From Lactarius indigo (lineage: Eukaryota; Basidiomycota; Agaricomycetes; Russulales; Russulaceae), in the NCBI GenBank assembly GCA_025766275.1, contig JAFKAC010000256.1:1-43806 (forward strand): DNA of 43,806 nucleotides, in the 5' to 3' direction. The notes beneath the pieces are model-generated. The model saw only the letters and a program-made list of their open reading frames with translations. It did not search any database and was not told the DNA's origin. Positions within the stretch are counted from its first letter, which is position 1; every line of letters starts with the position of its first letter. Position numbers and translations under genes: made by a program. Below, in pieces: positions 403 through 25,000 of this stretch.

Positions 403-3400
403 ATGTCTAGGAAGTCCAGGAGAAGAAATAACTTTCGGGTTCCTGATCTTGAGGCTCTGCCTCAGGACGAAGGTGTGTATTATAACTCCCTGTACATACA
501 CGCTCTGCTCACCATTTGTTCATAGTGGTCAGACAGAGAGGAGCTAATGAAATGAGAATCCATACGTCCGGACGCAGCGGTAAAGTTTCGACAACCAGCG
601 GAAGTATCACACTAATGGTGCAAGCAGACCTCGAAGATCAGGCTGGCTCATCAACTCGGTCGCGGGCCCAGGCCCAGAAAGAAGGGCCCTCGGGTTCTGG
701 TGAGTTTTTTTTTTCGTATCGTAGCGATTTTGGATTTAACGTGTTACAAATAAACAGGTGACGATCATCAACCTGGCAACCGGAGAACTCCCAGCGACAC
801 CACTCAGTCGGTGCCCCCTCGGATGATTGGGGATTTTGACGGCAACGCCAATGCCTTCTGGTCTCTTCACATGAATGAAGCAAAGAGTCACGATGAAGCC
901 CGAATTCAATCCTTAAAAGATGATATGGGCAGTGTCCTCATATTTGTATGTATCCATATTCCCATACAGCATTTTCTGGCCTGAGCTGATATGCCGTCGC
1001 CCAGGCTGGTTTATTCTCCGTTTCTCTCGTCTCTTTCATCATCGATAAGATTCATGATCTTGAAGTCGATCCAGCGAAGCAAATGGTCTATTACCAACAA
1101 CAGAATAACGCCCTACTCGCCCAGATCTCTACCCAGGTCTCTTTCATCGCCCCACAGATCCCGATCCCTTACACTCCAACTCCAGATTATAAATATTCAC
1201 CAAACTCGTCCGATGTCCGGGTCAACGCTTTCTGGTTCATGAGCCTCGTGTTCAGCATTTCTGCCGCGCTCCTCGCGACGCTCGTTCAACAATGGATACG
1301 GGACTACATGCATGTATTTCAGCGGTACAGCAACCCCCTGAAGAGCGCGCGACTACGCCAGTATCTATACGAAGGCGCAGAGGGATGGTATATGCCAATG
1401 GTGGCGGAGTCTGTCCCAGGGCTTATCCATGTCTCTCTCTTCTTATTCTTCTTTGGACTCTGTGACTCTCTTTTGAATCTGAACACGACCATTGGCATCA
1501 CGACCATCGTTCCGATTGCCGTCTGCGGGTTACTTTACGTCTTGTCCATGTTCGCTCCGATTTGGGACCCCCAGTCACCATTTCAGACCCCATTCTCCGG
1601 CATGATCTGGTATCTGAGGCAGAAGGCGTTTCCACAACACTACTCGGATCGTGAATCTGGTGGAGCTCTCAAGAATGTGAGCCCGGACATGTCTACAGGG
1701 AAGGCGCAACTGGCGATGGAAGAGACCGAAGAACGCAAAGGTCGTGACGTCCAGGCAATCCGATGGTTGATCGATAACAGTACAGAGGACGACGAGGTGG
1801 AATCGTTTGCGATGACCATGCCTGGCACTTTCACCTCAGAGTGGGGCGTCGAAGTATGGAGAAAGGTTTCGGAAGTAAAGCGATATGAAGGCGCCAATTC
1901 CAGGCTGACTGACTTTACTGTCACATCGCAGACTGATGCAGGCCTTCGGTTGTCCACTCTACCATATCATGGTTCCCCACATCCACGGCGCACCTTTCAT
2001 CCTCGCACCCTCCTTCGTCCCTTCGGACGCATTCTTGGGACACGCACCGTGAATACCATCCCCCGCGACGTGATGATGGCCCAGTCAATACCTCCCACAC
2101 CGAACGACGCTCATGTAGTCAGGGATCTTGCCATCGATGATCTTTGCAAACGCGTACGGCATCTTCTCGGTACATGCCACAATCGCGGCCTATTCGCAAA
2201 CAAGGAATTGTGGCGCAAGCGTGCACGCGGATGCGTCGAAACGGTAGCGTTACTCGTGTTCTGTCCTAATGTCAAACTGGAACTGTTTGGAGATCTCGAA
2301 GACCTCGAAAGGCTACTCCACGAATTAGGCGAAACTGAGAAGATCCGTGATCTGTCAGCCGCGGGACCTGATGGGCCATTCGTCACACGCTGGATATGCC
2401 TATCCCTTGTGATCGTCACCCGGAGGATTTCAAGCCACGACATGATAAAATCGTATGCAGAATTGGCTATCGATTACCTTTCTAGGTTCCAAGTAGAAGA
2501 CGACGGGGAACAAACAAACAGTGATACTGTTGAAAAGCTACTCGAGATATCCCGAAGGATCGACAGTGACTTCGAGACCGCGAGCCAATTTTGTGTTTAT
2601 GAACTGAGAACGGCGTTCAGTCAAGGTCAAGTGGGAAGTACGGAAGATCAAGCCAGAGGAGTCCTAGCACGCGACTACGAGGCCGACATTTCCCGGCTTG
2701 AAAACGTCACCTCTGTGGTGGACGAGATGGAGCGCATCGATATGGCCGTCTCTGAAATTAACCGTATAGCCAAAAATGGGTTGAGTGTACACCTACCTGG
2801 TGTATCTTTCGACGAGTTCAAGGGGACAGGACTCATTCAGCCGATTCAATTCCTCAACTTTTTGGTTGCCGAAGGGCAAGAATCCACACCCCAGTTCGTA
2901 TTCCTGTGTCAGCGCCTTCGACTCTTATGCTCCTATGCCCCCAAATTGCGCGACATCATGGACGGACGAGGCGATGACGTTTACCAGGACGTCGTCGGGA
3001 GCCTAGGGAGCCTGTGGGACAATGCTGATCGCAGGCGGTCAGTCGTTGGTCAACAACATCTGATGGAACGACAGCTATGGCGCTTGCTGGACCTTCGTGA
3101 TGGTGGCGGCTTCGGATTTTCAGTTGAGGTTTTCTTTCTTGTGCTCGCACGACTATCATCGCCACAGGATACAAACACCGCCCTTTATATCAGAACGTTC
3201 AGAGCCATCACGTCCGGCTGGAGACAACACAGAGATTGCATTGGGACGCAGCGTGTGATTCTTAACTTGATCTGCGACATTGCTATTTGTGACCGTGGCA
3301 TCTTTTCTGAACCCACTTTCCCAGCAGACATCGCCAACGAGCTTCTGATACTATTTGAGAACATGATGGAGGGGCAGTCCGGTTCGCATCTTGACGATGC

Positions 3401-3509
3401 AATGGCGGAACTGCGGCTAGGTCCTCCATTGATTATTTACAATGACCCAGAGTTTTTCTCCAAAGCACGGGAAATTATCTACCGTTTGAGTGCTCGTGCA
3501 GCTCCATAG
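403..3509 (+). CDS. DUF6535 domain multi-pass membrane protein
   Basis: Proposed exons are 403-476, 533-699, 758-945 and 1005-3509, which sum to 978 codons including the stop. The last two introns (700-757, GTGAGT, and 946-1004, GTATGT) are secure: they join FWSLHMNEAKSHDEAR... to LIF|AGLF in frame, the usual start of a DUF6535 domain. The first intron and the ATG at 403 are less certain. Membrane segments are visible at LIFAGLFSVSLVSFII, FWFMSLVFSISAALLATL, a stretch around LIHVSLFLFFFGL, and TIVPIAVCGLLYVLSMF. The C-terminal 600 residues are soluble, helical and charged. DUF6535 proteins are strongly expanded in Agaricomycetes; their biochemical role is unknown. I see no frameshift in the large exon. 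Confidence 0.85.
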
Positions 3510-5899: not shown

Positions 5900-6760
5900 A
5901 TTTATCTGCTCTGCACAAGCTCTGCCAAATGCCAAATGCATCATGTAGTAATTGGATCCTTCCCATGCAATATTTTCACAGGTGGTACCCTCACTGATTG
6001 GCATTTGCTTGGGCATTTGTGTTTTCACACTCATGGTGCAGGGAAGGGCATACCTTTACCCAACCCTGGAGAGCTGGAAGCATTGAAGAGTCTAGCAGAG
6101 AAGGGTAGAGGCTCAGGACCAAATGAGATGCCTAATGATCTAATGAGTATGCCTAAACATCTTTGAAAGGGTCCATGGCAATAAAGCCAAAAACATGACC
6201 AAGTATATCACATACAGCTCCACTACACAATTCCTGCTCAATTGAACCCAAACATTCCCTACCCCAATGCCTCTAATTGAAAAGCACTATTAACAAGTAT
6301 CCCAGTAAATAGAAGACTTGACAAACCAATATTTGTATCCACCAGAAAGCCTATAAATTGCCCAACAGTGTATCTATTAGAAGATTGGGGGAAATGTTCC
6401 CTGATTGTTGACATGATATTTGCTCCCTGACAGTCTGACTCTGCTTGAGTAAGAGCTGATCCAACTGGAGTACCAGAAAGGCACAAAACAGCTGCATGCT
6501 TGAAAATGAGAATGATTGCTAATTGAAATGTTAAATGTGCTGTAAAAAATAGGAAAGGCAAATACCCAGTCTCAAATGGTAGCTGTTGGCACTAGCAGGA
6601 TTGTACTGAGAAATATGGTAAGTGGAAGTAGTGAGAGCACATCACCATAATAAGAGAACAGCACCTCTGAAATGATTGAAAGAGACATAGCATGTGTTAT
6701 CTGGTGAAGTAAGAACCATAATTGACCAAGGATATAAAATACTTACAATCTAGATGTTCA
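5900..6760. other. AT-rich tract flanking the intron array
   Basis: Base composition becomes clearly AT-richer than in the neighbouring genes from about 5900, and the change fades into the first units of the tandem array near 7000. The minus strand carries the proposed terminal exon of the G-domain gene (6572-6700) and a 100-codon open stretch (6259-6561). On the plus strand an open stretch ends at 6166 with a peptide ending in PNDLMSMPKHL. No transposon ends were recognised. Different composition suggests a different origin or mutational history from the GC-richer part of the gene. Confidence 0.4.
6259..6561 (-). CDS. Hydrophobic open stretch, possible C-terminal continuation
   Basis: This is a 100-codon minus-strand frame rich in hydrophobic residues (FLFFTAHLTFQLAIILIF; GQFIGFLVDTNIGLSSLLF) that looks like membrane-spanning protein. 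It lies just downstream of, and one frame off, the terminal exon of the G-domain/micro-exon gene at 6572-6700. A single-base indel near the TTT at 6574-6578, or an unrecognised splice, would join them into one polytopic C-terminus. One-base slips are common in this window, so this is plausible but not shown. No family is recognised. Confidence 0.3.
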   Translation of the reverse strand: MPFLFFTAHLTFQLAIILIFKHAAVLCLSGTPVGSALTQAESDCQGANIMSTIREHFPQSSNRYTVGQFIGFLVDTNIGLSSLLFTGILVNSAFQLEALG

Positions 6761-9700
6761 ATGATAGACACTATCAGGAGACTTAAAAAGAAAAAGAGGC
6801 AGCACTCACACTCTGAAGAGACAGAAATGGGCCCAATCAGTGAAGTCAGCAAGAGATGGGAGGCACTCACATCCTAAAGAGTCAAAAAGGGTCTTCATAT
6901 ACAAGTGTGAAAGAAATCAAGTAGTAGGCACCCACCAACTGTAGAGCCAAGGGTGAACCCAGTCAACAGGCTCAAAAAGGTGCCCTAGACAACAGCCACT
7001 CACTTTCTGTAAAGCAAAGGGTACACTTGTCAGAGGTATGGAAAGGGAGTCAGAGATGGTAGCTGCTCACTTCCTGTAGTGCAAATGGTGGGCATGGTCA
7101 GCAAGCATCACAGCCAAGTGCAGGTTTAGTCAGTGGAATGGAAAGTGTGCTAGTGACTCACTTTCTGCGAAGTCAAGGGTGGACTTGGTAAGCGGGTTGG
7201 AAAGTATGCAAAAGACTGCAGTAACTCACCATCTGTGGAGCGAAGAGTGGTCATGATCTGCAGGTGAGAATATATCCGGGGACAGCAGCAACTTACTTGC
7301 TGCAGAGCGGGACATGACACTCGGTTAGCTTGAATGGATGCCAGAGACAGCCGTGCTCACAATCTACAAAGATGCGGTCAGTGGGGTTAAAAGGTAACCA
7401 GGGACAGCAGCCGCTCACCTTCTGCAGAGCCAATAGTGGGCCTAGTCAGCAGCAAACTTAAAAGGGAGCTAGGGACAGCAACGACTCACATGCTGCACGC
7501 CAGCTCAATTAGCGAGGTTGAAAGAGAGTCGGGGACAGCAGTCACTCACCTCCTACAGAACAGCAGGTGAGCCTGATCAACGGAGTCGAAAGGAATCCCG
7601 GGACAGTAATGACTCACCTCCTGCACAGCATAGGGAGAACTTGGTCAGCGTAAAAGAGGTATTAGGGACAGCGGCGACTCACAAACTGTAGAGCCAAGGG
7701 CGGGGCTAGTCAGGAGGCTCAAAGGGTGCCAGGAATAACGGTGACTCACGAACTGCAGAGCCAAGGGCGAACTCTGTCAGTAGGTTTGAGAGGCTGCGAT
7801 AGACAGCAACTCACTTTCTGCAAATTAAAGGGCAGGCTTGGTTAGTAGGCCTGGAGGTGCGAGGGACAGTAGCGGCTCACGTCCTACAAAGCCGAGGGTG
7901 GGATCAATCAGCGGACATATAAGCGTGCAAGGGATAGAAGTGACTGACGATCTGCAAAGCCAAGGTGGGCCTGGTCAGCGGGCTTGAAAGTGTACTAGAG
8001 TGTAGCCACTCACGTCCTGTAGAGCCAAGGACAGGCTTGGTCAGCGAGTTCAAGAGGCTAGGAACCAAAGCCGCTCACGTTCTACAAAGCCGAGAACAGG
8101 CTTGGTAAGTGGGTTTGAATGCATGCCAGGGACACCAGTAACTCACGTTCTACACAGCCGATGGCGAGTTTGGTCAGCGGGCTTGAGAAGGTGCTAGGTA
8201 CGATAACTCACCTCCTGCAGAGTTGAGAGCAGACCTGGTCAGTGGACTTGAAAATGTGATAGGGACAGTAGCTGCTTACAAACTGCAGAGCCGAGGGTAG
8301 CCTTTATCAGTAGTTTGAAAGCGTACCAGGGATAGCAGCGGCTCACACACTGCAGAGCCGAGATGGGCTTTATCAGCGGGCTTGAACGGACAGTAGCGAC
8401 TCACGTTCTGCAGCGCCGAGGGTAGGTTAAATCAGCGCGTTTGAAAGCGTGTCAGGGCACAGCAGCGACTCACACACTACAGGGTGGACGGTGGGCTTGA
8501 TCAGCGAGCTTAAAGGGACAGTAGCAACTCACAAGCTGCAGAGCCAGGGACAGGCTCTGTCAGCGGGTTTGAAAACGTGCCAGGGATAGCGGCAACGTAC
8601 ACACTGTAAAGCCGAGGGCAGACTTTGTCAGCCGGTTTGAAAGCGTGCCAAGGATGGCAGCGACTCACACACTACAGAGTGGAGGGCGGGTTTTGTGAGC
8701 GGGTTTGAAAGCGTGCCAGGGGATAGCAACAACTCACGGGCTACAAAGCCGATGGCAGGCTTTGTCAGTGGGTTTGGAAGTATGCCAGGGGATACTAGAG
8801 ACTCACAATCTGCAGAGCCGATGACAGGCTTTGTCAGCCGGTTTGAAAGCTTGCCGGGGATGCAGCGACTCACACACTATAGGCAGCCCTTGTCAGCAGG
8901 TTCAAAAGTATGCCAGGGATAGCAGACTCACAATCTGCAGAGCCGAGGGCAGGCACTGTCAGCAGGTTTAAAAGCGTGCTGGGGATAGCAGTGACTCACG
9001 GGCTGCAGAGCGAAGTGCAAGCTGTGTCAGCGGGTTTGAAAGCGTGTGGGGACAACAGCGACTCACACACTGCAGAGCCGAGGGCGGGCATTGTCAGCGG
9101 GTTTGAAAACGTGCCAGAGATAGCAGCAACTCACAAACTACAGAGCCGAGGGTAGGCTTCACATCAGCGGGTTTGAAAGCATGCCAGGGATAGCAGCAAC
9201 TTACACACTATAAAGCCCGAGGGCGGGCTCTGTCAGCGGGTTTGAAAGCGTGTCAGGGATAGTAGCGACTCACACACTACAGGGTCGAGGGCAGGCTTGG
9301 TGAGTAGGCTTGAAAGGGAGCTAGGGATAGTAGGCACTCACCAGCTGCAGAGCCGAGGGTTGGCCCGGTCAGCAGCCTTGAAACGGTGCTAGGGAAAGCA
9401 GCTACTTACACACTGCAGAGCGCCGAAGCCAGGCTTAGTGAGCGAGATTGAAAGGGCGCCAGAGATAGCAGGCACTCACACACTGCAGAGCCAAGTGTCG
9501 GCGTGATCAGCGGGCTTGAAGACGAGCCAGAGACGACAGCAGCTTACCACCTGCAGAGGCGATGGTGAACTTGGTCAGTAGACTTGACAGAACGGACACT
9601 AGCCACTCACAAGCTGCAGAGGCGACGGCGGTCTTGGTCAGAGCCCTCGAAAGGGAGCCAGGGATAACAGCCACCTACAAGCTACAGAGCCGAGGGCAGA

Positions 9701-12700
9701 CTTCGTTAGGGGGTTTGAAAGGGCGCCAGCAACAGCAGCCACTCACAACCTGCAGAGAGAAGGGCGGGCTTTGTCAGCGGGCTTGATAGGGTGCCAGCGA
9801 CAGCAGCCACTCACGGACTGTAGAGGCGAAGGTCGGCTCGGTCGGCAGACGTGAAATAGTGCCAGGCAGCGACTCACAAACTGCAGAGCCGAGGGTGGGC
9901 TTGGTCAGTGGGCATGAAAGTGTGTAATGGATAGTTGCCACTCACTTCCTACAGAGACGAGAGCGAGATTGGTCAGCGAGCTTGATAGCGTGCGAGGCAC
10001 TCACTTTCTGCAAAGCCAAGGGTAATCTTGGTCAGCGGACTTGAAAGCGTGCTAGGGGGAGCAGTCACTCACATACTGCAGAGTGGAGGGCGGGCTTGGT
10101 CAGCGGCTTTGGAAGTGAGCCAAGGATAGTAGCCGCTCACTTTCTGCAAAGCCAAGGGCAGGCTTGATCTGCGGGTTTGAGAAGGTGCCAGGGATCTACT
10201 CACCTGCTGCAAAGCCAAGGGCGGGCTTGGTCAGCGGGTTGAAAAGGTCCCAGTGACAGCAGCCACTCACAAACTGCAGGGTGGGCTCGGTCAGAGTACT
10301 TAAAAGGGTGTCAAGGACAGTTGTGACTCACAATCTGCAGGACCGAGGGCAAGCTTAATTAATGGGCTTGAAAGGACGTCAGGGACAACATAGACTCACG
10401 TTCTGCATAGCCGAAGGCAGCTTGATCAGCAGGGTTGAAGAGTCAGGAAGAGCAGTTACTCACCTCCTGCAGAGGCGAGTGTGGGCTTAATCAGCGAGCT
10501 TGGAAGAGTGCCAAGGTAGCAACCACTCACAAACTGCAGAGGCGAGGGCGAGTTTGGTTAGTGCGTTTGAAAAGAGACAATAGTCACTCACTCTCTGCAC
10601 AGCCGAGAACATCTTAGTCAGCGGGCTTAAAAGCGTCCCAGGGACAGTAGTAACTCACTTTCTACACAGCCGGGGCCGAGTTTATTCAGCGGCTTTAAAG
10701 GGGTCATAAACATTACAAGACTCACAAACTGCAGAGTGGATGGTGAGTTTGATCAGGGCTTGAAAGGGCATCACGGATAGCCACTCACTGTCTGCAGAGC
10801 CAAAGGTAGGCTCGGTCAGCAGGCTTAAATGCGCAGCACGGACAGCAGCCACTCACCCTCTGCGGGGCCAAGGAGGGGTCTTGATCAACGGGTTTGAAAG
10901 TGAGCCAGGGGCAGCAGCCACTCACATCCTGTCGGGCCGAGGGTGTGCTTAGTCAGCAGGCTTGAAGCGGTGGCAATACTGGCAGTGACTCACAAACTGC
11001 AGAGCCAAGAGCAGGCTTGGTTAGCGGGCCTGAAGCGGTAGCAGGGACAGTAACGACGTAGCGGCTCACTCGCTGGAGAGCACGCATAGGCTTGGTCAGT
11101 GGGTTTAAGAGGGTGCTAGGGAACCACTTCACATCCTGCAGACCCAAGGGTGGGTTTGGTCAGCGGGCTTTCCAGGGACGGCAACCACTCACTTTCTGCA
11201 GTGCCGAGGGCGGGCTTGGTCAGCGGGCTTGAAATTGTGCTAGCGACAGTAGCCACTCACGTCCTGAAGAGTCGGAAGTATGCTCGGTCGGTGAGCTTAG
11301 ACAGGTGCCAGGGGACCGTACTCACTTCCTTTAAGGTCGGTGTCGGACTTGCTCAGCAGGTCTTAAAGGGTGCCAGGGTCAGCAGCAACTCACAAACTGC
11401 AGAGCCGGTGATGGGCCTGGTCAGCGGGCCTGAAAATATGCCAGGGACAGCAGCGACCCACAAACTGTACAGTTGATGGCCGGCTTGGTCAGTGGGCTTG
11501 GTCGCCAGGGACGAGTAACTCACGTTCTACAGAGCCGAGGGCGATCTCAATCAGCGGTCTCAAAACGGAGCCTGGGACAACAGTCGCTCACCTCCTGTGG
11601 AGCCAAACGTGTACTTGGTCAGTGGGCTTGAAAGCGAGCCAGGGGAAACAACAGCTTACTAGCTGCAGAGGAAGACAGGTTTGGTCAGCGCCTTTGAAAG
11701 ACCGTGAGGAAAACTTGCAACTCACGTCCTGTAAAGCCACGGATGGGTTTGGTAAGTAGGACTCAACGGGGCAAGCAACTGCAGCGACTCACAAACTGCA
11801 ACCCAGGGGTGAGTTCGGTCAGCAGGCTCGAAAGGGTGCCTGTGACAGTAGCGACTCACATCCTACAGAGTCAGAGTGAGGATGGTCAGCGGGCTTGAAA
11901 GGGTGCGCGGATAGTAGCAGCTCACCAACTATAGAGTCGATGGTGAGCCTCGTTAGCAACATTGGAAGGGTGCCGACGACCTCAGCGACTCACAAACTGC
12001 AGAGCCAAAAGTAGGTATGGTCAGCAGGCTTGAATGGGTGAAACAGCAACTCACGTCCTGCACATCCGGGGTATGCTTGGTCAGTGGGCTTGGAAAGGTG
12101 CCAGTGATCCTCGCGACTCACTTCCTGCAGAGCCGAGGTGTGGGTTTGGTCAGTGAACCCGAGCGACCAGGAACGGAACCACTCACTCCCTGGTAGCAAA
12201 GGCCAAGTACAGGCGGTCAGTAGAGCCGAAATATGGCGAGCAACAACATGCACTTACGAACTGCGGTGTCGCGCGATATCGAGCATGAGAAGAAAGGACC
12301 CCACTTGCCAAAAAAAAAAAAAAAAACTTGCCCAGATTTGGGGAAATGCGAAAAGGCATGCCCTCACTACAAATCTTGTCTTTTCGTTATAGAGCCCCAT
12401 AACGCTTCAATCTCTGGTGAGACAGTACCCTCTTCCATACATGTAGAAAACTCACCGCTTGACTGCCACGTTGATGCTGAGTTCCAAATTACCTCTCTGT
12501 GCGGCCAAAAGCATGACGATGACTGTATCGTCATTCAACGCATCGGCTGTCTCATCGAGAAGAGCCTGGCAACTCGTCTCTGGCCTGTTCATATCTTTCA
12601 TAAGAGGATTAGTACATGCCCTCCACATTTGACGCTGAACGGACTTCTCAATCGCACGAACCTCTCACCGACACCAAGGTGAGACAGGTAGTGATCATTA

Positions 12701-13493
12701 AATTGTCTCTCCGCCACCGCCACATCAGGTACGTCATCTGGATTTCCGTAATCCTCCAAATGCATTCTCACGTTTCGCAGGAATTGGTCGTATTTGGTGA
12801 ATATCGCTATGACAGGGACTTGGAACTGATGTGTTAAACAGCTTCACAGATGTTCACGACAACGTACCATTCTTGTCAGGGCAAATGTCGTTGAAGTGTT
12901 TCAGGTCCAGCTCTGGTCGTTGGTTGTCCATTGGGACGCAGTACCTGTAAAGCACGACCATTAGTGATTGTAATCGTGAACTTGAGTAAGCGAACCATAT
13001 TGCATGCAATCTATCCTGCATACGCCTTTCCCCAGACCTTTCTCGAATGAATTCCTGCACGATTGCCAACTCCTCGATACTACCAGCCTCGAATCCACAG
13101 GAGTCATGAAAAATGTATCCGTCATGATTGGAGAACTCAAGTTCATCCTTGATGGTGTGCTCGCCACGCTATCTCGAAGATCAGAACGGCCGCAGTGAAG
13201 TACGAGTGCCACCCACCTCCATGGACGGGTGAAATTGAACCTTGTGAGGAAGGGAGTGGTGAGTGCAGACTAGTAGAGTGAAAAATGACAAATACCCGCT
13301 CTCTGTGGTCGCCCGTTCGACGGTAAATAATTGGGCTGTCCGTAGTGTTGCACAATCTCTGCAAGATGGACGTCTTGCCAGCATTTGCACGCCCTACAAT
13401 GAGAACTCGGAACTTGATTTTTGGGAGTCGACGGCCTTGGAGGGGCATTGCGGGAACGGGAACGGGAGCAGGAACGGAGGGTTGGTCTCCCAT
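6572..13493 (-). CDS. G-domain protein with a C-terminus encoded by 84 single-codon exons
   Basis: This is a predicted small GTPase-like protein of the Agaricomycete G-domain family. Exons on the minus strand are 13493-13296, 13240-13217, 13168-12996, 12944-12868, 12818-12645, 12594-12456 and 12404-12305, which sum to 885 nt or 295 codons. Motifs seen are G1 GRANAGKTS, G3 in FHDSCGFEAG, G4 FTKYD, then FVRL-NMNRPET, ALLDETADALNDD and QRGNLELS, all in family order. The domain ends near AFPQIWAS; a 17-T run follows, coding Phe. Intron 12261-12304 then leads in phase 0 into 84 exons of 3 nt (12258-12260 down to 6747-6749). Intron 6701-6746 leads to the last exon 6700-6572, which ends LLVPTATI and a TGA. 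Predicted length is 421 aa. The start ATG at 13493 is the first in frame. The G-domain exons are well supported. That the array and terminal exon belong to the same mRNA is inferred from phase. The poly-T run is the weakest joint. Confidence 0.75.
6747..12260 (-). repeat. Tandem array of intron units separated by 3-nt exons
   Basis: About 83 diverged units average some 66 nt. On the plus strand each reads ACTCAC-NNN-CTGCAGAGCCGAGGGCGGGC, then TTGGTCAGCGGGCTTGAAAG and GTGCCAGGGACAGCAGC. On the minus strand that is donor GTGAGT, branch CTGAC about 24 nt before the end, and acceptor CTGCAG, followed by three free bases and the next donor. All 84 junctions keep AG, exactly 3 nt, then GT. Donor variants are GTGAGC, GTAAGT, GTAAGC, GTGGGT, GTCAGT, GTACGT, GTAGGT and GTGAAG. 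Acceptors are nearly all CAG or TAG, with one AAAG near 11332. Units in the middle (about 8300-9450) resemble each other most; those below 7400 are AT-rich and most diverged. One merged intron of 88 nt lies at 7074-7161. Confidence 0.93.
6747..12260 (-). other. Peptide spelled by the 84 single-codon exons
   Basis: The first exons (plus coordinates, residue) are 12258-12260 F, 12187-12189 G, 12122-12124 E, 12055-12057 D and 11994-11996 F. The last are 7004-7006 K, 6936-6938 L, 6871-6873 D, 6810-6812 S and 6747-6749 I. Residues 1-18 read FGEDFLDFDLENFFEDKD. Residues 39-56 read VLLVCCLCCFCPICIPCC. Residues 62-79 read ENNDIDKFFEEHKIQMKE. Charged residues (D, E, K, R) number 18 of 37 in positions 1-37, 0 of 24 in 38-61 and 11 of 23 in 62-84. 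Aromatic residues recur every three or four positions before the hydrophobic part, as in an amphipathic helix. There is no stop in this phase; the other two phases stop at the 8th and 10th codons. Positions 38-61 would be one Cys-rich membrane span. Confidence 0.85.
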
Positions 13494-22072: not shown

Positions 22073-25000
22073 CTAGCGTGATTGAGTAGGCGTGTCAATG
22101 ATGGCTACTCCATCTCGGTGACCTTGACCTTCAATCAACTCCTCCAATTCGTCCACGACCCGTGAAAGGCGCTCGTCTCGAGTTCCTTTGCAGTCGTAAT
22201 AGGTGGGATTAGACACGATACGTTGGGCCAGGAAAGTCAAAGATAACGCTTGAACACCTTCATGCTTGCTGCTAATATGTCCGCGGCTCCGGTGGTGCTT
22301 GTACCACTGTCGCAGTTGATCTGAGCGAAGGAGCTGAGACTCTAGCGGAAGTCCGCCCTCCAGGAATCGCATGTAAGTGTCTTTATCCTCCGCCTGGCAA
22401 AATAGATGGAAATGGCCCATGTCCCCGTGACGTACTGCGCGACCTTGCATATGGACGAGCTCTTCTAAAGTGTAGTCACGAAGCTGACGCCTCGCACCGT
22501 CCTCGTGGATGGAAATATACTGCGTGCCCATTACGACCACCGCCGCTGCACGGACGGGGAGCGTCCAGCATGCTTCTCTGGCCACGACTAGCACCTGGAT
22601 AATGCCCCCCGTGTACAGCTCCATAATCGTCGCGTGGTCCTGTTTATGCATGCCAAGGTGCAAAATGCCTACGCCATTCGAAAGGAGGTTGGACATGCCA
22701 GGATCTTGCAGCCTGTGGAAGTACGACTGGAGGAACTCCGGGGATACACTGGGTGACAGGTATCCGGCCCCTGCGCCGGTTTCGAGGGTACAGTTGACGA
22801 TGAGATCCAGTGCGACGGAAGAGCACTGGGTCCGAGAGGGTACGAACACGATCGCGGGATTGAGGCGAATGGAAAGGATGGCAGTCGAGGCGGGCCTGGC
22901 CATGGCTTTGAATAAAGCGGCCGAGTGCGGGATCGCGAACGTGTGCACGGCCACGTTCAGCGACTGATCCCGGTCACTGGGTCGGAAGCTGTGGAAGGCG
23001 GACGGCGCTACGTCTAGCCACGTAGCCAGGTCCCCCGATTCATTTAACGACGCCGAGAACCCAACGACACGTGTTGGCTGAGTTCGGATGACGCGGAGAA
23101 GAGACGATATGGCAAGTTCATAATATGGATCTAGTTGCTCAAGGTTCTCGAGAACGACCAACTGCAGTCCGGGGTAGGAATGTGCCAAGTCCTTCTCCTC
23201 GGAGAGCGCGGCGACAAGATGAGAGGAAGTCGTTAAACGTATCTCCTTGCTTCTCGCAGGTGCAAGCGTACCCGAACCAGTAACAAACTTCATGGAAAAA
23301 CCCATCACCGGCGGTACCCCACGCAAGTCCGACATCCACTCCGTGACGATACTGTGCCGCGGAGCGATAACAAGGACATATCCCTGACTCGGAATTCGGG
23401 CCAACGTCTCGCTATCAAACAGTTCAGTGATCTCGTTAAAAATGAGAACATCTTTTTCTCACCATGTTAAGATGTGGCCCAAGGTGGACTTACCGGAGCC
23501 AGTCGGCGCACAGAGAAGGGCGTTGCTTTGTGTATTCACTGTGCTCCAGAACGCCTGCGTCTGGATAGCATTTAAATTGCGTAGTTTCGCAGCGAATAGT
23601 TCCCTAAGAATATGGTTTTGCAGGACCGAGGGTGATAAGAAGGGGAGATCTAAACGTGGTGTATGACTATTGGATCGGGAGGGCATAACCAAATCGTCGA
23701 AAGGAACTTTGATTTCATCTTCGGAACCCATCCACCTTTCGGAAACAACACGTATGGTCACGAAAGGTGGGATCTGTCCTTCTGGGACGGAAATTACAAA
23801 CGCCACATCCAATCTGTCCGTGGATTGTCGGAGAAGCAGATACGAAAGTTGTAGAATCACTTTTTCTTCATGGTCTTCGATCCAAAGCCAGAACGGCTCG
23901 ACAGATCCGTGCCGGGAAGTCCACGAGAAGGTACTACGCACGTGCGTGTCAATTCTGAGAACATCAGGGCCGAGAGGGCGCAGAGAATGAGAGACTTGGA
24001 CTGCGGGAAGTTGTTTTGCAGCGTCCAGGATAGCTTGTCCGTGAATAGGATTGAGATGAACTAACTTCCCAATCTCGGTTGCTGACATCCGCACTAATTC
24101 GGATGCCGAGTAATCGTCGGCCCATTGCTCGAGCCCATAGTATACATCTGGCTTCAGGTTGAACTGCTTAAGCGGCTGGTCGAAAGGCCACAGGCGCTTC
24201 TCAATGGCCTTGCTGACCCCCATCAGCACGGCGCTCGTGTTGGCCCACTTTTTGCTGATGGCGATTTCAAGAAGGGCTCGAACGATGCGTCCAGCATTCT
24301 GAGCGACATATTGCATATCTGACACCAGGGCAAAGTCTTCCACGACAGCCCACGAGATATAACCTTGGAGAAGTACATTGACCTTGCCTTCACGTGTAAA
24401 TAACGCTTCCGACTCGTCATTGGCCTTTTCTTGCTTGTTCCGGGAGGCTTCTCCACTAATGCGAACCTTGCCTGAGCTATTTTCGAATGCGTTCTGACAG
24501 TGAGGTGTCAGACAGCTCGAGAGTTCACGCCTAGCGCGATCTCCCTACGAACCTTCACATTGCATGGAGCTATTTCAAGAAGTTGCGTAAGCTCCTTCGT
24601 CTCGTTCTCCCGAACTTGGATTTGATCAAACTACGATCGTTAGGCGATCATTTCTTAGATTTCGATCAGAGTCGCCTACCTCGGTGCTGAGACTAACCAT
24701 GGACAGCACGTCTGCCTCTGTCATGCGTGTCCGGAGTTCCCGATTGAAAATTTCGATGGACTTGTGATGGATGTAGTACTTCGCCGCAAGTCGGCCGAGA
24801 TCGTTGATAGTAAATGAACTACTATCTTCGTCGAAATTAATCATTTTAGCTTCTACAAGGCTGCGTGCAGCTGCGCGAACCAGCTCATGTCGCTTGCGGT
24901 CTAACGTTCGGTCGTACTTTACGTCGTCATAGGAAACCCCTTCTTGTTTTTCAGACATTGTGGAGAGGAGTCTCGGAGGGGAAACTCACCATATAATGTA

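Follow-up and report, generated by a model that had tools for sequence, protein, structure and literature searches.

Predicted arrays of single-codon exons in a GTPase gene family of Lactarius indigo

Genes with many very small exons are known from schistosomes and aphids. In the micro-exon genes (MEGs) of Schistosoma, the coding region consists mostly of very small symmetrical exons and the encoded proteins are variable (PMC4350168, in the part of the text available), and the aphid cassette effector KQY1a is encoded by 37 exons of 6–416 bp (PMC7495047, likewise in part). These two groups are the closest known layouts to the one described here. Here we analyse a 43,806-nucleotide (nt) stretch of DNA (contig JAFKAC010000256.1 of assembly GCA_025766275.1; hereafter referred to as the window) from Lactarius indigo, an edible ectomycorrhizal milk-cap. 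The minus strand of the window carries, inside a predicted GTPase gene, an array of 84 units in each of which an AG acceptor is followed by three bases and a GT donor. We observed the units themselves, a stop-free phase through them, their recurrence beside GTPase genes and, in the proteins of relatives, variable peptides at the corresponding position. On this sequence evidence, we put at about 85% the probability that the window gene belongs to a large predicted GTPase family of Lactarius and that its 84 single-codon exons are likely to be spliced and translated.

The array resembles MEGs in its many very small symmetrical exons and variable protein, and differs from them, as far as the available part of that source goes, in that all array exons are one codon long, 30–84 of them follow one another, the introns are tandem copies and the host is a predicted GTPase. 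Moreover, whereas MEGs have most of their coding sequence in tiny exons, 84 of the 94 predicted exons of the window gene are 3 nt long and supply only 84 of about 481 residues. The aphid KQY and bicycle genes likewise have many miniature exons; KQY differs in its mixed exon sizes, its 45.7-kb gene and the secreted insect proteins concerned, with no one-codon run in the portion of the text seen. Within the portions available, neither the MEG nor the aphid sources describe one-codon runs or near-identical introns as a repeat unit. In het-d and het-e, NLR genes of the fungus Podospora, it is coding sequence (WD40 and similar) that is repeated. Highly conserved internal repeats are reported for these genes (PMC12222747 and PMC4986451, both in part). 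Their layout, an NTPase (nucleoside triphosphatase) region followed by tandem repeats that are conserved except at a few variable positions, resembles that of the Lactarius genes in part. In Lactarius, by contrast, an intron together with one codon is repeated, behind an MMR_HSR1-like G domain; tandem conservation with few variable sites holds at the DNA level, and the conserved part is the intron. Other basidiomycete MMR_HSR1-type GTPases have the same G domain and C-terminal exons and many paralogues, whereas the eight L. indigo gene models examined all lack the array peptide. A first-pass annotation, made from the letters of the window, had regarded the array as undescribed, and we found no description of one-codon-exon arrays in open-licence full texts, among which two papers on plant gene families mention 'arrays of introns'; the main text of a study of Lactarius symbiosis transcriptomes (PMC8417538) contains neither 'GTPase' nor 'exon'. 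We regard the layout as categorically new and the splicing chemistry as ordinary.

Array of three-base units

A chain search for AG, three bases and GT at steps of 50–100 nt, which itself demands the three-base gap, reproduced the 84 consecutive AG-NNN-GT units that the first-pass annotation had noticed, as an unbroken chain running from 12260 down to 6747 on the minus strand. The first array exon is TTC (12260–12258) and the last is ATT (6749–6747), the predicted peptide has 84 residues, and the introns span 55–88 nt. The spacing between units is 58–91 nt, and exactly 68 nt in 28 of the 83 steps. The introns are most often 65 nt long, slightly longer than the G-domain introns of the same gene (48–55 nt), and end in AG, mostly as CAG or TAG. 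They carry a donor, a branch-type motif and an acceptor: donor positions +3 to +6 have diversities of 0.23, 0.09, 0.02 and 0.28, with A at +4 in 80 and G at +5 in 83 of the 84 units, and a CTNAY motif lies 10–45 nt 5′ of the acceptor in 78 of the 84 introns (shuffles: mean 26.7, maximum 36). The three exon bases, with per-site diversities of 0.73, 0.66 and 0.69, had been described as the most variable part of each unit, which is correct for the block and not for each base, as intron position +7 (0.71) is about as variable.

The region is a tandem repeat. The longest chain was 1–3 units in 20 mononucleotide shuffles of the region, and outside the array the minus strand gave chains of 2 and 1; the longest on the plus strand, of 11 units, lies within the array itself (8560–9233) and is a chance motif repeated along with the array unit. 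A splice-unit pattern with at most two mismatches matched the window 66 times, against 0.47 expected, with a single match outside the array, on the plus strand.

Phase 0 is free of stops over all 84 codons, whereas the other two phases stop at codons 10 and 8. The encoded peptide has 18 charged residues in the first 37, none in the next 24 and 11 in the last 23, with 10 cysteines in the middle block. Both the phase pattern and the charge pattern had been noted before and were recovered here. The earlier suggestion that the uncharged, Cys-rich block is a membrane span fares poorly, as the longest uncharged run in 14 other arrays is only 4–9 residues. The introns within the block are somewhat more alike (17.3 nearest-neighbour mismatches) than the other introns of the window array (22.0 and 24.4), which would fit a later amplification of the block.

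The host GTPase gene

The array sits between predicted exons for an MMR_HSR1-type G domain (12332–13493) and three predicted C-terminal exons (6259–6700), all on the minus strand. The predicted gene thus comprises 7 + 84 + 3 exons, and its message would encode about 481 residues including the G domain, in place of the 252-nt mRNA that had been expected to be the entire product. The exon that directly precedes the array (exon 7, 12332–12404; several AG could serve as its acceptor, and the choice followed the resemblance to the L. hatsudake model P0001) closes with FPQIW in phase 0 and has a donor of the GC type (GCAAGT). Because it ends on a whole codon, the array is read in phase 0, its sole stop-free phase. 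Phase 0 also continues after the last array codon into the first C-terminal exon (6665–6700), which encodes ITHAMSLSIISE (compare TVQIMSLPTIRN in the family).

Upstream of exon 7, exon 1 (13296–13493) is predicted to hold the start codon and the P-loop GRANAGKTS, and is homologous to P0001; exon 2 (13217–13240) measures 24 nt; exon 3 (12996–13168) encodes RGEHTIKDELEFSNHDGYIFHDSCGFEAGS...HAIW; exon 4 spans 12868–12944; exon 5 (12645–12818) holds FTKYD and has an odd donor, GTCCGT; and exon 6 (12456–12594) has an odd acceptor, AAAG. Together, the predicted G-domain exons encode MGDQPSV...GRANAGKTSILQ...DSCGFEAGS...FTKYD...FPQIW. Downstream of the array, the second C-terminal exon (6566–6605; YNPASANSYHLRL) and the last one, with the stop codon (6259–6518; AIILIFKHAAVLCLSG..., compare AVILILKHATFLRLSN in P0122 and related proteins), are likewise predicted. 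The three C-terminal exons read in frame as ITHAMSLSIISE-YNPASANSYHLRL-AIILIFKHAA... up to the stop, in agreement with the aligned C terminus of the family (TVQIMSLPTIRN / ...YHLIL / AVILILKHATFLRLSN) and with the proteins of relatives.

The window gene scores 27 bits against Pfam MMR_HSR1 (PF01926), above the curated cut-off of 21.9; the paralogue C2m scores 22.8. P-loop GTPases are marked by the motifs GxxxxGKT/S and T/NKxD, and the window gene has both, as GRANAGKTS and FTKYD. Other Pfam matches of the part before the array were only weak ones to Septin, G-alpha and Roc, with no NACHT or NB-ARC. A protein search yielded 580 homologues at E ≤ 1e-3, the best being 80% identical over the query and from L. 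hatsudake; the named homologues among the matches listed are fungal. Furthermore, the sequence upstream of the array is homologous to that upstream of other arrays (tblastx E-values down to 2.5e-95). The donor preceding the array is GC in the window gene and GT in all seven aligned paralogues. The intron preceding the array (12331–12261), which opens with this GC, contains a run of 17 T. In P0001, the homologous intron has apparently been translated, and the residues there are compatible with the first array codon, TTC.

Recurrence across the genome

We searched the genome (90.3 Mb in 291 contigs) with a splice-unit pattern of 14 fixed bases, allowing at most one mismatch, and found 878 places, as compared with 25 for the reversed pattern. 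Among the matches listed, a GTPase exon on the same strand precedes 33 of 37 array places by no more than 5 kb; this test used 63 genome matches, 11 of the 37 places rest on a single listed hit, and the single hits C2:768984, C5:180654 and C157:414605 were left out. No array was seen in the surroundings of C2:768984 and C5:180654. The places at which no GTPase exon was detected upstream are C82:67730-69679, C82:88408-89602, C231:150584 and C231:243920 (clusters or single hits). Of three further GTPase loci inspected for which no array was listed, two carry arrays, of 46 and 58 codons.

Besides the array of the window, we read 17 arrays downstream of related GTPase genes, and array length ranges from 30 to 84 units. 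Pooled counts refer to 15 arrays, the window's and 14 others of 30–77 codons each. C1, L021 and L022 were excluded as close copies of the window array and C2p, and the probable allele pairs L019/L023 and L026/L028 were kept, L028 being truncated at its 5′ side. In C2m, L020, L029, L030 and L031 the chain seemingly overshoots by one unit into the C-terminal exon, and L027 opens with four units whose introns are dissimilar, so that the pooled total of 830 triplets may be about 10 too many.

The L027 array (C91:52000-57500) is found in a divergent subfamily of the GTPases, and the sequence of its introns is quite different, indicating that the layout is not bound to one intron sequence. Its codons come from a small set (GAA, GGA, TTC, CTC, CGA, GTC and TCC). 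Pattern hits at 69–70-nt spacing occur on C50 and C82 as well. One array gene is present three times, as L021 and L022, 103 kb apart on contig C231, and as C2p on C2. The upstream flanks of the three (3.8 kb) are 98.6–99.2% identical, and the downstream flanks (4 kb) are 98.3% identical between C2p and L021 and 85% identical between L021 and L022. C2p is shorter than L021 by two whole units (136 nt).

Triplets behave as codons

TAA, TAG and TGA do not occur among the 830 triplets, against 89.7 expected from position-wise base composition, an expectation that assumes independent units, which array units are not. Stops are also absent from every array and from the 234 distinct array-codon types. 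Among NAG and NAA codons, NAG accounts for 6 of 174 in 12 arrays and for 153 of 284 in five long open frames of the window. An NAG triplet would place a competing acceptor directly before the donor. The 14 non-window arrays use only 8–20 distinct codons for 30–77 units (L031, 8 for 46 units), and GAA outnumbers GAG by 139 to 6 in the 12 arrays, unlike in the open frames of the window. These 12 arrays come near to one codon per amino acid (GAA, AGA, TTG, GGA, TCT and GAT), again unlike the five long frames. About 70% of array residues are Glu, Arg, Leu, Phe, Asp or Ser, and Ala, Pro, Thr and Val contribute 0.6–2.4% each. Together with the proteins of relatives described below, these codon-like properties suggest that the one-codon exons are very likely spliced and translated. 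The single-codon exon array proposed by the first-pass annotation gains support from the phase of the gene, the absence of stops and the recurrence at GTPase genes, as well as from the spliced-looking proteins of relatives.

Uninterrupted proteins of relatives

Six of the 13 matches of one homology search (P0125, P0127, P0128, P0129, P0131 and P0132) come from contigs of 914–1547 nt. Their N-terminal side is cut, and they run uninterrupted across those L. indigo introns that they cover (after RLE, KR and IW, and in the C-terminal part); since these introns are missing, we take the six contigs as cDNA. All six proteins have a variable insert of 31–46 residues between FP[FY]IW and the TK or TTRVM of the C-terminal exon, and in five of them the insert fits array composition with log-likelihoods of +4.5 to +18.8. 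In P0119, from a 1107-nt contig, FPHIW-LFEEEGDTFIE is followed by VSGCNGLI, which is how the start of an array-type intron would read in translation. P0119 looks partly spliced, with 11 array codons joined and the next intron retained, which hints at a 5′ to 3′ order of removal. The L. quietus gene model P0120 shows 38 array-like residues in this position, and 43 of 120 homologues among the matches listed match FPxIW and extend beyond it.

In L. hatsudake, L. vividus, L. tabidus and L. sanguifluus, several predicted proteins run into an array-type intron (P0061 (SGCDASLRFEPADDACPRLSSG), P0080, P0100, P0086 and P0114), which shows that such units exist in those species. P0047 also looked partly spliced; its codon register could not be settled, and it was not used as evidence.

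The inserts are poorly predicted in structure models. In that of P0127, the insert has confidences mostly of 41–57 and is followed by a helical region at 84–95 (residues 261–350), and the model had no match in the PDB at E ≤ 0.001. The P0120 model, which includes the whole G domain, had 312 PDB matches; the best of these, with E-values of about 1e-6 to 1e-5 and a TM-score near 0.3 relative to the query, were dynamin-like, IRG and heterotrimeric G proteins.

Variation within and between arrays

Within the 14 non-window arrays, introns differ by 6–25% in mean pairwise comparisons and triplets by 57–72%, counted on units with 68–70-nt spacing and with the L027 intron figure inflated by a register shift; in the old array of the window, introns differ by 41%. 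Unit pairs whose neighbouring introns both have at most two mismatches (nine arrays) share the same codon in 25 of 92 cases, versus 16 expected. Permutations reached the observed value in 1 of 300 trials for L019, 0 of 300 for L026, 0 of 300 for L028 and 254 of 300 for L031. Thus, the link between codons and introns is weak in some arrays and absent in others.

The probable alleles L019 and L023, with 60 and 48 units, have flanks that are 98.7% and 99.2% identical. Over 43 aligned units, an alignment that is uncertain because the units are so similar, their introns differ by 2.5% and their codons by 45% per site, and 17 of the 43 codons are identical. The first-pass annotation had treated an unrelated peptide in relatives as a sign against the exons; it is of no use as such, since most codons differ between probable alleles within a single genome. 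Older copies have remained stable: the window and C1 arrays share all 84 codons, although their 4-kb downstream flanks are only 90% identical.

The few codon types in each array imply that codons probably spread by copying, and as codons are less homogenised than introns, we infer that selection for a mixed peptide may oppose homogenisation. A steady high mutation rate of the triplets was rejected, being unseen between close copies. Inversion of triplets was considered as well, since many triplets are accompanied by their reverse complement (TCT/AGA and GAA/TTC), and was rejected, as close unit pairs gave 11 cases versus 10.1 with shuffled codons.

Proposed mechanism and its implications

We propose that each array intron would be removed singly by the ordinary spliceosome under intron definition, probably in roughly 5′ to 3′ order. 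The array would grow and shrink by the exchange of whole intron-plus-codon units, with each change adding or removing residues in frame; recombination between near-identical introns would insert, delete and reshuffle single codons without ever breaking the frame. In this model, recombination would keep the introns alike and selection would maintain a mixture of codons. The encoded GTPase would have, before the predicted helical C-terminal part, a linker or sensor that is hypervariable and probably flexible, and its most likely use, by analogy with other hypervariable fungal NTPases, would be recognition, of self and non-self or of invading elements. Our broader interpretation, to which we give slightly less than an even chance, is that of a protein-coding minisatellite with an intron as the repeat unit, in which single codons are reshuffled frame-safely at dozens of loci, probably in the service of recognition.

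If this is true, the arrays illustrate how far exons can shrink when introns define the units, with up to 84 one-codon exons and about 93 introns in a single predicted gene and with a layout common to a gene family, and offer a direct test of exon- and intron-definition models of splicing. They would also explain the loss of the middle of the gene in the gene models examined, and would represent frame-safe protein evolution through recombination in non-coding DNA, a genomic device that generates diversity and yields alleles with largely different peptides.

Several points weigh against the reading of the array as spliced, translated and diversified codons. The window array itself does not avoid NAG (7 of 19), and the diverged GTPase-like locus C101 has no array. 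All eight L. indigo gene models examined stop at or before the array and thus lend this reading no support. In the proteins of relatives, the origin of the six inserts in one-codon exons is suggested by their position and the cDNA nature of the contigs by the missing introns; moreover, the first 27 or so residues of P0128 lie outside the frame of the family, and the P0125 insert is unlike array composition (log-likelihood −12.6). Codons are not clearly faster than introns between close copies, with 0/252 codon versus 9/5289 intron changes for the window and C1, 1/90 versus 7/1932 for C2p and L021, and 1/96 versus 17/2061 for L021 and L022; hypervariability is therefore seen inside young arrays, without amounting to a constantly high rate of change. 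In the window gene, the odd donor GTCCGT and acceptor AAAG of one G-domain intron and the GC start of the intron before the array suggest that this copy could be partly disabled, though the other exons that it shares with the family are open.

Alternative explanations

The alternative that survives best, which we nevertheless consider unlikely, accepts real one-codon exons and gives their peptide the part of a neutral linker with no role in recognition, purged only of stops and splice-breaking triplets. The low structural confidence of the inserts, the variation in array length from 30 to 84 units and the near independence of codons from neighbouring introns (25 of 92 versus 16 expected) would all suit such a linker, whereas a residue composition far from even would not, and neutrality alone does not give introns that are homogenised far more than codons.

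It is improbable that an older, ordinary coding sequence had near-identical mobile introns placed between almost all of its codons. Such insertion would account for near-identical introns around differing codons in young arrays, and introner-like elements, spliceosomal introns present as many near-identical copies, have been reported from fungi (PMC4457414, in the part seen). The Lactarius copies, unlike these elements, stand head to tail at about 68-nt spacing and mostly beside one gene family: 33 of the 37 places among the matches listed follow a GTPase exon and four do not. An ordinary coding sequence is also hard to reconcile with the 8–20 triplet types per array and the excess of GAA over GAG (139 versus 6), neither resembling the open frames of the window, and the length change between C2p and L021 is one of whole units.

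Slightly less probable still is recursive or alternative splicing, in which the units serve as ratchet points or as a menu and, of the 84 codons, at most a few and perhaps none would remain in the mRNA. Acceptor and donor are indeed close together, as at recursive splice sites, where AG and GU adjoin with nothing between them (PMC13149111, in part), and any combination of the 84 exons could be skipped without a frame shift. In contrast to recursive sites, three bases separate them in 84 of 84 units, these are never a stop in 830 triplets, and relatives have variable peptides at this place. Moreover, the 31–46-residue inserts of the six cDNA-like proteins overlap the sizes of whole arrays (30–84 units), and P0119 has 11 successive codons before its retained intron. 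Partial skipping may nonetheless occur in some transcripts.

The least probable alternative, that the 5.5 kb are an untranslated satellite in one large intron, or part of a dead gene, with splice-like motifs copied from a single founder and the whole removed or unused, fits the tandem repetition, the eight L. indigo models that end at or before the array and the models of several relatives that read into the first array introns, and is contradicted by the lack of any stop in 830 triplets, against an expectation of about 90, by a sole stop-free phase that is the one set by the exons on both sides, by a three-base chain (with three bases demanded by the search) unbroken in an old array with intron insertions and deletions, and by the variable inserts in uninterrupted proteins of relatives.

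Elsewhere in the window

An open frame on the plus strand (990–3506) matches Pfam DUF6535 (E = 2.7e-37), a family of unknown function. Two long frames on the minus strand (22073–24544) presumably encode a BRR2-type helicase.

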